Positions 1,713-6,250 of a stretch of DNA of 33,605 bases are shown piece after piece. The DNA lies in the NCBI GenBank assembly GCA_007692645.1, contig REBR01000105.1, positions 1-33,605 on the forward strand, read 5' to 3'. A model generated the notes under the pieces. That model was given only the letters and a program-made list of their open reading frames with translations. It was not told where the DNA came from and did not search any database. A program made the translations under genes and the position numbers. Position 1 is the stretch's first letter; each line of letters starts with the position of its first letter. The DNA is from Halomonadaceae bacterium (GTDB lineage Bacteria; Pseudomonadota; Gammaproteobacteria; Pseudomonadales; Oleiphilaceae).

Positions 1713-2876
1713 TTATAAGGTAAGTCCCGCATCCGTATTGCCAACCCCCTGACGGAAGGGCAGTCCAGCTTCCGCTTGCTGGGCATAAGCTTCTATCCCC
1801 TGGGACTCCCGCTGGCAGAAGTCGGCTACCGCATGGCGAAAACCCGGGTGTGCCACCCAATGGTATGAGCGAAACAGCCTGGGCTCAAAGCCCCGGCGCA
1901 ATTTGTGTTCCCCCTGGGCGCCGGCATCAAAGCTCTTCAGCCCCCGGGCAATGCACAGGTCGATGCCCTGGTAGTAACAGGCTTCAAAGTGCAGGTGGTC
2001 GAATTCTTCCAGGCAACCCCAGTAGCGGCCATACAGGGTCTGCTCATCATGGAGGAACAAGGCCGCGGCACAGTACTGTCCAGCATGGCTGGCCATCACC
2101 AGGCTCAGATGCTGAGGCAGGTTCTGGTGTAAGTGCTGGAAAAAAGCCAGATTCAGGTAAGGGGCCTGGCCATGTTTACTGTAGGTGGCCTGGTAGAAAA
2201 CGAAAAAGGCCTCCAGCGCCTCAGGGGTGATCGCCGTGCCACTGAGAGTGGTGAGTGTAATTTCCTGTTGCGCTACCTGGCGCCGTTCCTTGCGGATCTG
2301 TTTGCGTTTGCGGGCGGTCAGGGTAGCGAGAAAATCCTCAAAATCCCCGTATTGCCGGTTATGCCAATGGAACTGGCAATTGAGACGGGTCATCAGGGCG
2401 GGGTGATCCTCCACTGCCGCAATGGTGGCCGAGTCCGGAAACAACAGGTGCCAGGAGGAGGCGCCAGTGGTGGCTGCCCGGGCCAGAATGTCAGCACAGG
2501 CAGTAGCTCCCAGAGCGGGGCCATCCGCATCCGCCGCCATCAGTAACCGGGGCCCTGCAGAGGGGGTGAAAGGAACGGCAGTGAGCAGCTTGGGGTAGTA
2601 GTTCAGGCCATGCTCAGCCCAGGCCTGAGCCCAGGCCCAGTCAAATACATACTCACCGTAGGAATGCCCCTTGAGGTAACAGGGCATGGCCGCCTGCAGC
2701 CTGCCGTCACGGTGGTACTGTACCCAGTGCTGGGGTGCCCAGCCGGAGCGGGCAGTGGTGCAGCCGGTTTTTTCCAGGCCGTAAAGAAAGGCATGGCTTA
2801 AAAAGGGGTTGTCACAGCCCCGTAGCTGATCCCATTCACCGGGGTCTACTTCGGCCAGACTCTGAATAAAAGGCAT
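1713..2876 (-). CDS. FemAB/GNAT-like protein (DUF482/PF04339-type, peptidoglycan biosynthesis/recognition family)
   Basis: ORF with likely start MPFIQSLAEVDPGEWDQL (the track start is 15 codons upstream). FemAB-like features: NPFLSHAFLYGLEKTGC, ARKRKQIRKERRQ, and the C-terminal KSFDAGAQGEHKLRRGFEP. Confidence 0.8.
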   Translation of the reverse strand: MPFIQSLAEVDPGEWDQLRGCDNPFLSHAFLYGLEKTGCTTARSGWAPQHWVQYHRDGRLQAAMPCYLKGHSYGEYVFDWAWAQAWAEHGLNYYPKLLTAVPFTPSAGPRLLMAADADGPALGATACADILARAATTGASSWHLLFPDSATIAAVEDHPALMTRLNCQFHWHNRQYGDFEDFLATLTARKRKQIRKERRQVAQQEITLTTLSGTAITPEALEAFFVFYQATYSKHGQAPYLNLAFFQHLHQNLPQHLSLVMASHAGQYCAAALFLHDEQTLYGRYWGCLEEFDHLHFEACYYQGIDLCIARGLKSFDAGAQGEHKLRRGFEPRLFRSYHWVAHPGFRHAVADFCQRESQGIEAYAQQAEAGLPFRQGVGNTDAGLTL

Positions 2877-2880
2877 GTAC

Positions 2881-3720
2881 TCACCAGAACAGCAGCAGGG
2901 CTGCCGCCAGGGCCCAGACATAGAAGGCGAACACTTTCAGCTGGGCTTTGTAGAGCAGGGTAATCACCAGCTTTAAAGCTACGATGCCAACCAGGGCTGA
3001 GACCACAAATACCACAATAAGCGCCGTCAGGCCGATCTGGTCCAGCCACTGGCCGGCCCGGTAAAGCTCAATGCCATATACCAGACTGATGGCGCAGATG
3101 GTGGGAATAGCCAGAAAGAATGAGTACTGGGCCACCCAGCGGCGCTTGAGGCCGGTGAACAGCCCCGCTGTCATGGTCATGGCGCTGCGGGAGATGCCCG
3201 GGGCAAAGGCAATGGCCTGGGCCAGGCCGATAAAACCCGCGGTCTTCCAGCCGATATCCCGCAGCCGCTCGGTGCGCCGGGGCAGTTTGTCGCTCCAGTA
3301 CAGCAGAATGCCGGTGATGGTCAGGGTAATGGCAATGGTGCCGGTGCGGGCAAAGATATCTTCCGCAAAAGCCCGCAGTGACAGCCCCACCAGACCGGTA
3401 ATCAGCACCGAGAACATCCCCAGCCAGAACAGCTTCCACCAAAGCCCTTCCCGCACTTTGGAGGGGCCGGTGACGGAGCGCAGCACATTCAGGGTAAATA
3501 CCGACAGGCTGGACCAGAACACCACGGCAATGGACACCAGGGTGCCCAGGTGCGCCACCAGATACACAAAGATCATTTCCGGGTGATCCGGGGGCAGCAC
3601 TTCCGCCCCGGAGTTATTCAGCCAGTGCTGGGTCAGGGTCATGTGTGCCGTAGAACTCACCGGCAGGAACATAAACAGTCCCTGCACAAATCCCAGCAGC
3701 ACTGCGCTCCATAGTGACAT
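2881..3720 (-). CDS. Undecaprenyl-diphosphatase (UppP/BacA) family protein with divergent motif 1
   Basis: Hydrophobic 279-aa protein with FLPVSSTAH and APGISRSAMT motifs and the BacA-like C-terminal layout; motif 1 is GFVQGLFMFLPVSSTAH. Confidence 0.85.
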   Translation of the reverse strand: MSLWSAVLLGFVQGLFMFLPVSSTAHMTLTQHWLNNSGAEVLPPDHPEMIFVYLVAHLGTLVSIAVVFWSSLSVFTLNVLRSVTGPSKVREGLWWKLFWLGMFSVLITGLVGLSLRAFAEDIFARTGTIAITLTITGILLYWSDKLPRRTERLRDIGWKTAGFIGLAQAIAFAPGISRSAMTMTAGLFTGLKRRWVAQYSFFLAIPTICAISLVYGIELYRAGQWLDQIGLTALIVVFVVSALVGIVALKLVITLLYKAQLKVFAFYVWALAAALLLFW

Positions 3721-3746: not shown

Positions 3747-5111
3747 TCAACCCGCCGCAGCCGTGGGCAGGGTCAGTACGGCAGAGGCGATGGCGAAATA
3801 AATCAGTATGCCTGCCACGTCGGCGATAAAGGTGACGATAGGGGCGCTGGCGGTAGCCGGGTCCATATTCAGGCGGTTCAGCAGGAAGGGCAGTGACATG
3901 CCAATCAGGCTGCCTGCCAGCACCACAATCACCATGGTGCTGGCGACCACAAAGGCCATTTCCGGCCCGCCCCGCCACAAGCCAATGCCGGCAACGGCGA
4001 TGGCCATGGTGATGCCCAGTGCGGCACCAACACTGATTTCCCGTGCCAGCATGCGGGCCCAGTCTTTCATCACCACATCGCCGGTGGCGATGGCCCGCAC
4101 CATCAGGGTGGCGGACTGGGCGCCGGTGTTACCGGCACTGGCGATCAACAGGGGCAGAAAGAAGACCAGGCCCACATGGGCGACAATGACATCTTCATAC
4201 ATGGCGATACCGGCGCCGGAGAAGACATTGGCAAACACCAGCAGTACCAGCCAGTAGACCCGTTTCTGGTAGAGAATTCTCAGGGTGACCTGGCTGACGC
4301 CACCGGACATAACCCCCACGTTGGCGCTCTTGTGGAAATCCTCGGTGGCTTCTTCTTCCTGCACGTCCATGGCGTCATCGTGGGTGACAATACCCACCAT
4401 GGCATTATGGTCATCCAGTATCGGCACTGCCAGCAAGTCGTAGTCTGCTACCTTCTGAGCAGCTACTGACTGGGGTTCATCGGCGTTGACCGTGACCGGG
4501 TCCCGCTGCATCAGGTCTTCTACACGGTCATCGCCGTTGGCCACCACCAGGCCGCTGAGGCTGACGGTGCCCACCAGGTTACGGTCGCTGTCGAGCACAT
4601 AGGCAATGTAGATGGTTTCCTTGTCCAGGGCCTGGGTGCGAAGCTTCTCAATGGCCTGGCGGGCGGTGAGGTGACTGGCCACGGTGGCATATTCGCTGGT
4701 CATGATGGCGCCGACCGTGCCTTCCGGGTAACTGGTCAGGCGCAGCAGATCTTCCCGCTCCGCTTTGGCCAGGGCCGGCATCAGAGTTTCCTGCATGTCT
4801 TCCGGCAGTTCCTGATACAGGTCGGCCCGGTCATCGGCGTTCATCTCTGTGAACAGCCGGGCCAGGGCGTGGCGGTCCAGGCGCCGTACCATGCTGAGCT
4901 GGTGAGACGGGGACAGGTAGGCCAGTACCCGGGACTGGTTTTTCAGGTCAAGCAGATCAAACAGGGGAAAGGCGTGCTCGGGTTCGAGCTCATCAATAAC
5001 GGCACCCACTTCGGCGGGGTGGCGGCTATTGAGGAGCTCAAAGGCCTGGTCCATGTGGCTGTTGTCCAGCAGTTCCTGAATTTCACTCTGCAAATCCGTT
5101 GTTTCTGACAT
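3747..5111 (-). CDS. mgtE: Magnesium transporter MgtE
   Basis: 454 aa with N-domain (HPAEVGAVIDELEPEHAFPLFDLL), tandem CBS domains (GTVGAIMTSEYATV, VEDLMQRDPVTV) and TM domain LLIASAGNTGAQSATLMVRAIATGD. Confidence 0.95.
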   Translation of the reverse strand: MSETTDLQSEIQELLDNSHMDQAFELLNSRHPAEVGAVIDELEPEHAFPLFDLLDLKNQSRVLAYLSPSHQLSMVRRLDRHALARLFTEMNADDRADLYQELPEDMQETLMPALAKAEREDLLRLTSYPEGTVGAIMTSEYATVASHLTARQAIEKLRTQALDKETIYIAYVLDSDRNLVGTVSLSGLVVANGDDRVEDLMQRDPVTVNADEPQSVAAQKVADYDLLAVPILDDHNAMVGIVTHDDAMDVQEEEATEDFHKSANVGVMSGGVSQVTLRILYQKRVYWLVLLVFANVFSGAGIAMYEDVIVAHVGLVFFLPLLIASAGNTGAQSATLMVRAIATGDVVMKDWARMLAREISVGAALGITMAIAVAGIGLWRGGPEMAFVVASTMVIVVLAGSLIGMSLPFLLNRLNMDPATASAPIVTFIADVAGILIYFAIASAVLTLPTAAAG

Positions 5112-5122
5112 AACACGGTACC

Positions 5123-6250
5123 TCAGGGTTGGTTACTGGCTGCCTTGATCGGGGCCAGGTATTCCTCATCCAGCATGGCTTCAAAGGCAGTGGACAGGTG
5201 GGTGCGGAATTCCCCGCCACGGCGGTGGATCAGTAGTGCGGGAATGTCATGCTCTTCGGCATAGGCCAGGCTCTTCTCCAGTCCCATCACCATAAAGCTG
5301 GTGGCCAGGGTGTTGGCCTCGGTGTTACTGGGGGTGAAGACACTGGCCGACGCCAGCCGGTGGCTGATGGGTTCACCTGTGCGGGGGTCAATCAGGTGGG
5401 AATAGCGGCGGCCATCCTGCTGAAAGTAGTTGCGGTAGTCCCCGGAGGTGGCCAGAGAGCGGTCGTCCAGGGGCACTACAAACTGCGCCTGCTGCTGGCC
5501 GTCCTGGGGTACTTCAACCCCCACCTGCCAGGAACGTTCCGGGCTGCGGCGGCCTGCAGCGGTAATATCACCGCCGATATTGACCATAAAATCACTGATG
5601 CCCTGTTCTGTCAGATAATCCGCCACTTCATCAACCCCATGGCCTTTGGCAATACCGGAAACATCCACAAAAATGTCAGTCAGGCGCCGGGCCCGGTCAT
5701 TGTCCGGGTCCAGCTCCAGGTTGTGGATGCCGGTAATTTCCAACCGCTGGCGAATCTCACTGTCACTGGGGCGTTCTTCGGGCCGGGCTTCGGGGCCGAA
5801 GGTCCACAGGTTTACCAGCCCGCCGATGGTGATATCGAAAGCACCATCGGTTTTTTCACCATAGCGCCGTGATTCCTCAAGTACCTGCAGCAGGGCCGGG
5901 GGCAGTTCCACCCATGAGCCGGGTTCGGCACGGTTAAGGCGGTTTAGATCGGAGTCGTCCCGGTAAGTGGACATCTGCTTATCCACCTGCTCCAGGACTG
6001 CCAGGAAACCCGCTTCCAGCCGGGAAGCCTCCCGATCACTGTACTCACCAACCAGGGTAACCTGATAAAAGGTGCCGAATATGCCCCCGTCGAAGCGCAC
6101 TGCCGGTGGGGCTTCAGGGGGGCTGTCCCCACAGCCTGCCAGTAATAGCAGGACCAGCATGCCGATGAAAAGGCGACGAGAAACAAACCCGGAGACCCCG
6201 GGCGCTGTCATGGCTGGCAATGTCATGGAGGACCCCTGATTACGCGTCAA
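5123..6250 (-). CDS. apbE: FAD:protein FMN transferase (ApbE), lipoprotein
   Basis: Lipobox LLLLAGC; ApbE motifs MSTYRDDSDLNRLNR, FVDVSGIAKGHGVDEVADYL, VNIGGDI, YSHLIDPRTGEPI. The start is probably one of the internal ATGs (for example MTLPAMT). Confidence 0.93.
   Translation of the reverse strand: MTRNQGSSMTLPAMTAPGVSGFVSRRLFIGMLVLLLLAGCGDSPPEAPPAVRFDGGIFGTFYQVTLVGEYSDREASRLEAGFLAVLEQVDKQMSTYRDDSDLNRLNRAEPGSWVELPPALLQVLEESRRYGEKTDGAFDITIGGLVNLWTFGPEARPEERPSDSEIRQRLEITGIHNLELDPDNDRARRLTDIFVDVSGIAKGHGVDEVADYLTEQGISDFMVNIGGDITAAGRRSPERSWQVGVEVPQDGQQQAQFVVPLDDRSLATSGDYRNYFQQDGRRYSHLIDPRTGEPISHRLASASVFTPSNTEANTLATSFMVMGLEKSLAYAEEHDIPALLIHRRGGEFRTHLSTAFEAMLDEEYLAPIKAASNQP

Follow-up and report, generated by a model that had tools for sequence, protein, structure and literature searches.

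BacA homologues with methionine in place of the motif-1 glutamate stand in for canonical BacA in several gammaproteobacterial families

BacA/UppP is a bacterial membrane protein that serves the recycling of the lipid carrier for cell-wall synthesis. Can a BacA/UppP protein that lacks the essential glutamate of its first motif be the BacA of the cell, and if so, what does it do? The question is raised by a bacA/uppP homologue in a stretch of 33,605 nucleotides (the window), positions 1 to 33,605 of contig REBR01000105.1 from the Halomonadaceae bacterium assembly GCA_007692645.1, the remainder of which is ordinary chromosome. In the mechanism published for E. coli BacA, Glu21 deprotonates Ser27 and Arg174 binds the β-phosphate of the substrate, and the enzyme needs a divalent cation that is perhaps held by Glu17 and Glu21 (PMC4641660; PMC5852022; PMC5861054). 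The E. coli E21A variant retained 1.4% of the activity and did not complement (PMC4641660), and Chang et al., as cited in PMC4641660, reported 40% activity of E21A on C15-PP. In the window protein, Gln and Met occupy the positions of Glu17 and Glu21, and this protein and its relatives with the same residues are here called the QM type. The features of the gene are the following, with residues assigned by alignment to E. coli BacA:

2881–3720, reverse strand: bacA/uppP homologue of the QM type, 279 aa (PF02673, E = 6.1e-60, 203.5 bits, residues 6–273)
3640–3693, reverse strand: motif 1 in the first re-entrant hairpin, GFVQGLFMFLPVSSTAHM
3682–3684, 3673–3675 and 3670–3672, reverse strand: the motif-1 residues Q13, F16 and M17
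3652–3654 and 3643–3645, reverse strand: the putative motif-1 nucleophile S23 (E. coli S27) and H26 (E. coli H30)
3175–3201, reverse strand: motif 2, PGISRSAMT, intact, with R178 (E. coli R174) at 3187–3189
2917–2919, reverse strand: V268, aligned with E. coli R261; this position holds Arg in 77 of the 78 canonical sequences and either Val or Leu throughout the QM type

The sequence-only reading of this locus had placed Gln at 3682–3684 and Met at 3670–3672, and both assignments hold: the matched DNA CAGGGACTGTTTATGTTCCTGCCGGT at 3659–3684 contains CAG and ATG at these codons, and motif 1 aligns without gaps to E. coli BacA in the PDB (5oon/6cb2), Q13 corresponding to E17 and M17 to E21. It was equally correct that the PGXSRSXXT motif is intact in the translation of 2881–3720 (279 aa on the reverse strand, MSLWSAVLLGFVQGLFMFLPVSSTAHM...FAPGISRSAMT...), that Gln is tolerated at the first motif-1 position, where it occurs in 59 of 78 canonical comparators, and that Met at the second is unusual, all 78 comparators having Glu. 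The UppP motif-1 pattern (E/Q)xxxE with its essential E21 is therefore absent from the window protein (Q13...M17). Membership in the family is clear, since the full-length match to PF02673 exceeds the Pfam cut-off (203.5 versus 33.4 bits), and PF02673 was the only hit of the window protein in the Pfam scan, with no match to DedA (PF09335) or DUF368 (PF04018). The same protein falls below the UppP equivalog cut-offs (TIGR00753 and PRK00281 models; best 155.7 versus 260 and 149.3 versus 217.5) and, like three further QM proteins, fails all 12 NCBIfam UppP equivalog models, of which three canonical proteins each pass at least two. The sequence alignment to 5oon spans the BacA fold, in which inverted repeats interdigitate and two hairpins are re-entrant; an AlphaFold model built from just five sequences (pLDDT 51) was too poor for placing residues. 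A sequencing or assembly artefact was ruled out by the occurrence of the same residues in 39 distinct proteins, and a mis-binned contig by the tetranucleotide composition, which matches that of the contig's own genome (r 0.87–0.96, versus 0.30–0.81 for other genomes).

These 39 distinct proteins, all with Met at position 21 as the sequence-only reading had led one to look for, come from six gammaproteobacterial families (Halorhodospira, Thioalkalivibrio and others), have Q17, F20, M21 and V/L261 without exception and share the pattern QGxFMFxPVSSTAH. Scanning one genome per species revealed the substitution in proteins of 55–58% identity from Halorhodospira abdelmalekii, a Thioalkalivibrio MAG and two Ectothiorhodospiraceae MAGs; DNA pattern scans added four genomes among 369 sampled across the class and two among 392 across the order of the window, and the remaining members were obtained by family-wide searches, again with one genome per species. 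Pattern matches of the class scan in G419, G077 and G230 were discarded, as they had no homology to BacA. Identity of the QM proteins to canonical relatives is about 32–34%. In the tree, a single branch with support 100/99 sets the QM proteins apart, and the window protein lies inside the QM clade on a long branch (1.02). The long branches make the placement of the clade relative to the canonical groups unsure, while its unity is secure. No published description of the variant was found in the literature searched, and the clade, in which E21 is always replaced by Met, appears to be previously undescribed. The gene tree mixes host families: the g145 genes, which belong to family f129, are placed with a gene of the Halorhodospira family, apart from most f129 genes. 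This mixing suggests that the clade spread laterally. A plasmid-borne QM-like gene was not found, no plasmid record reaching 60% identity. In codon-based comparisons of 13 related pairs, dN/dS was 0.02–0.11 for 12 pairs and 0.32 for one, indicating that the QM genes are maintained.

Within the pocket, three residues that are near-universal in canonical BacA are changed together in all QM proteins, T20 to F, E21 to M (39 of 39) and R261 to V or L, the first and last of which had escaped the sequence-only reading. The QM proteins keep S26, S27, H30, Q164, S173, R174, S175, T178, R189 and S196, and S23 and R178, the counterparts of E. coli S27 and R174, are invariant in all 39. Newly (nearly) invariant are H32-W33 and K192-R193-[RK]194-W195; basic residues newly occupy E. 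coli positions 188 and 190, and a short insert precedes the mostly conserved E48. The sequence-only reading would have been refuted by an alignment in which a residue nearby provides the catalytic Glu. No such residue was found: motif 1 contains no acid, and across the 39 proteins no replacement acid for E21 was detected in or beside it. The acids that are conserved among the QM proteins lie elsewhere in the chain, namely E48 (37/39, Gln in the other two), E120 (38/39) and D144 (39/39); the first two are thus not strictly conserved, and D144 is D or E in canonical BacA too. The first and second re-entrant motifs are more similar to one another in QM proteins than in canonical BacA (mean BLOSUM62 score 18.3 versus 3.5).

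Which BacA do the hosts have besides the QM protein? In every well-assembled QM genome, the QM gene is the only PF02673 gene found. Among 60 genomes of the families f129 and f181 that are at least 90% complete, 26 carry the QM type alone, 33 the canonical type alone, one has neither and none has both, where about 14 with both would be expected if the types occurred independently (relatedness ignored). The exclusion holds also within the three mixed genera g145, g231 and g197. In the Halorhodospira family (genomes of unstated completeness), eight genomes have only the QM type, one has only the canonical type and three small ones have neither. Two 98%-complete QM genomes from other families within the order of the window yielded no canonical bacA. 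The canonical locus of g197, L158 (G423, on one contig), and the QM loci L151–L153, L083 and L084 from five further genomes of that genus share flanks with 81–89% nucleotide identity up to about position 4823 of L158 and again from about 5874, and only the roughly 1 kb bacA segment beside a maf gene differs. The QM type thus takes the place of canonical BacA, once at the same chromosomal spot. In the window's lineage the slot is a different one, as none of the neighbours of the window bacA adjoins any of 86 canonical loci. The best reading of these sequence comparisons is that QM BacA is xenologous to canonical BacA, and it is probably functional.

Of the proposals of the sequence-only reading, only the inactive paralogue is disfavoured, and this on both counts: being a paralogue does not agree with a sole PF02673 gene that excludes the canonical one, nor decay with the mostly low dN/dS ratios. 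A paralogue that is inactive or regulatory, or a gene in decay, would explain why the essential general base is missing, but it would hardly be the only family member in its genomes, under strong purifying selection and with the same residues fixed across six families, so that this reading is largely refuted and we give it next to no weight. The search for a canonical uppP elsewhere in the window's genome returned one PF02673 gene only, the QM bacA. This genome is 88% complete in 288 contigs, and a canonical gene could lie in the missing 12%, with the QM gene as an accessory second copy there, a scenario with which the long branch of the window protein (1.02) would also agree. We consider it very unlikely, because no genome of at least 90% completeness contains both types. 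G435 (87% complete), a candidate holder of both, was set aside: both of its contigs carry, at their ends, 92%-identical copies of the same flank, and the genome is therefore read as a strain mixture, which fits the data.

Three further observations concern the distribution of the gene. The exchange in g197, where maf and a Zn-peptidase gene border the divergent bacA types, is a clean single-gene swap and is useful for studies of lateral replacement in essential pathways. In G485 (f129, 96% complete), BacA of neither type was detected. A Thioalkalivibrio MAG with only the QM type (locus L040 on contig C159, G061/G486) contains a short, disrupted segment similar to canonical bacA (VQGLTEFLPISS..., then stop codons), possibly a relic of the replaced gene.

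The window bacA is flanked by the following genes:

3747–5111, reverse strand: mgtE, magnesium transporter (TIGR00400 over cut-off), 26 nt upstream of bacA
5123–6250, reverse strand: apbE, FAD:protein FMN transferase family (PF02424), upstream of mgtE
1713–2921, reverse strand: FemAB-like/GNAT gene (PF04339), directly downstream of bacA

No terminator-like site was found in the gap between mgtE and bacA, and apbE, mgtE and bacA probably belong to the same transcription unit. A terminator-like site is located at 1655–1632 on the strand of the FemAB-like gene. The ATG of this gene at 2921 overlaps bacA, while an internal Met at 2873 would not and is the likelier start. The PF04339 family has been described in terms of peptidoglycan biosynthesis or recognition. 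In the Halorhodospira family, mgtE adjoins QM bacA in eight of eight QM loci in several orientations (L032, L033, L034, L208–L211 and L213); it was not found in the flanks of 86 canonical loci, many of them just 1.5 kb per side, and QM bacA has no mgtE beside it in the remaining families examined. The association may go back to a common origin of the locus or to a requirement for Mg2+, and a functional link with Mg2+ uptake is possible.

What, then, might QM BacA do? Since the QM and canonical types substitute for each other, they presumably share the function that matters. We regard it, with moderate confidence, as most likely that QM BacA is the BacA of its hosts, from a laterally spread clade that replaces the canonical type, and that it still is an undecaprenyl pyrophosphate (C55-PP) phosphatase. 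It would dephosphorylate C55-PP to C55-P at the periplasmic face, with Ser23 attacking the β-phosphate, which may be held by Arg178, backbone amides and the dipoles of the two re-entrant helices. Deprotonation of Ser23 would have to proceed without the motif-1 glutamate and might be achieved by His26 (H30), by the substrate's own phosphate or by an acid outside motif 1, such as E120 or E48. The metal may not be held at motif 1, and the loss of R261, a proposed pyrophosphate ligand (PMC5852022), could be offset by the additional invariant basic residues around R193 (K192 and R/K194). A phosphatase with another mode of serine activation appears to be the most economical account. Against phosphatase activity speak the effect of E21A in E. 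coli, the loss of R261, the failed 12 NCBIfam cut-offs and the presence of PAP2 phosphatases. At least one PAP2 gene was found in every QM genome tested, and the host PAP2 enzymes could dephosphorylate C55-PP there. Compensation for the swap by extra PAP2 genes was not seen in comparisons within genera, in which the number of genes over the family cut-off was not higher with the QM type (one in G167 versus one in G382; three each in G329 and G219 versus three in G423). The swap was hence not paid for by more PAP2 enzymes. Because PAP2 genes are present in all QM genomes tested, sequence data cannot decide between a phosphatase and a flippase.

The flippase reading is the strongest rival to the phosphatase. 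It holds that QM BacA is no longer a phosphatase and that its role, whether retained or newly gained, is to flip C55-P or C55-PP, dephosphorylation being left to PAP2 enzymes: loss of E21 would remove catalysis, loss of R261 would break the bond joining the two inverted halves, and the more similar hairpins would bind the head group symmetrically. A flippase role for BacA was suggested in both crystal-structure papers of 2018 (PMC5852022; PMC5861054), and the interaction of R261 with the backbone, named in one of them as an argument against flipping (PMC5852022), is a lock that every QM protein has lost; the increased likeness of the re-entrant motifs and the PAP2 genes of the hosts agree with this as well. 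On the other hand, the putative nucleophile S27 and the other catalytic residues are invariant, for which a pure transporter has no obvious need, the likeness of the motifs may merely follow from the removal of polar residues, and no BacA is known to flip C55-P, the reported candidates being DedA and DUF368 proteins. We consider this reading rather unlikely. Its most specific form, slightly less probable again, sees the QM clade as a natural separation-of-function BacA: without catalysis and without the R261 lock, and with hairpins that have become more symmetric, it would work solely as an undecaprenyl-phosphate flippase. If this were true, lipid transport and not dephosphorylation would be the selected role of BacA in these bacteria with PAP2 enzymes, because the QM type replaces canonical BacA in place. 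QM BacA might also be a phosphatase for a different lipid (di)phosphate, e.g. on another polyprenyl or glycolipid carrier, with PAP2 enzymes making canonical BacA dispensable. The coordinated changes of the pocket (T20F, E21M, R261V/L, the basic residues at 188 and 190 and the insert before E48) would suit a new substrate or a different mode of binding, but the loss of the canonical gene and the exchange in the same slot would be left unexplained, and we judge a change of substrate improbable.

Compared with canonical BacA/UppP (E. coli BacA, 5OON/6CB2; PF02673, TIGR00753), QM BacA belongs to the same family over its full length, preserves S26-S27-H30, Q164, PGxSRSxxT and R189, is likewise the sole BacA of its genome and can occupy the same chromosomal slot, whereas it differs in E21 to M, T20 to F, R261 to V/L, H32-W33, K192-R193-[RK]194-W195 and the insert before E48. 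The C55-PP phosphatases of the PAP2 family (PgpB, YbjG, BcrC) would share their reaction with QM BacA in the case that the latter is a phosphatase, but are unrelated to it in sequence and catalytic motif and are present besides BacA in these genomes. The C55-P flippases DedA/UptA (PF09335) and DUF368/PopT (PF04018) would resemble QM BacA in function under the flippase reading, but the Pfam scan of the window protein matched neither family. BcrD-type BacA paralogues are from the same Pfam family and just 30–34% identical among the matches listed; they are plasmid-borne, whereas each QM gene occurs as a single copy in its genome.

A clade that stands in for the canonical gene while having no carboxylate in motif 1 challenges the accepted Glu21 mechanism. 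Either the textbook mechanism is not general and a carboxylate-free C55-PP phosphatase exists, which would bear on BacA inhibitors designed around that site, or the replaceable function of BacA is lipid transport, as suggested from the crystal structures in 2018, and not its phosphatase activity.
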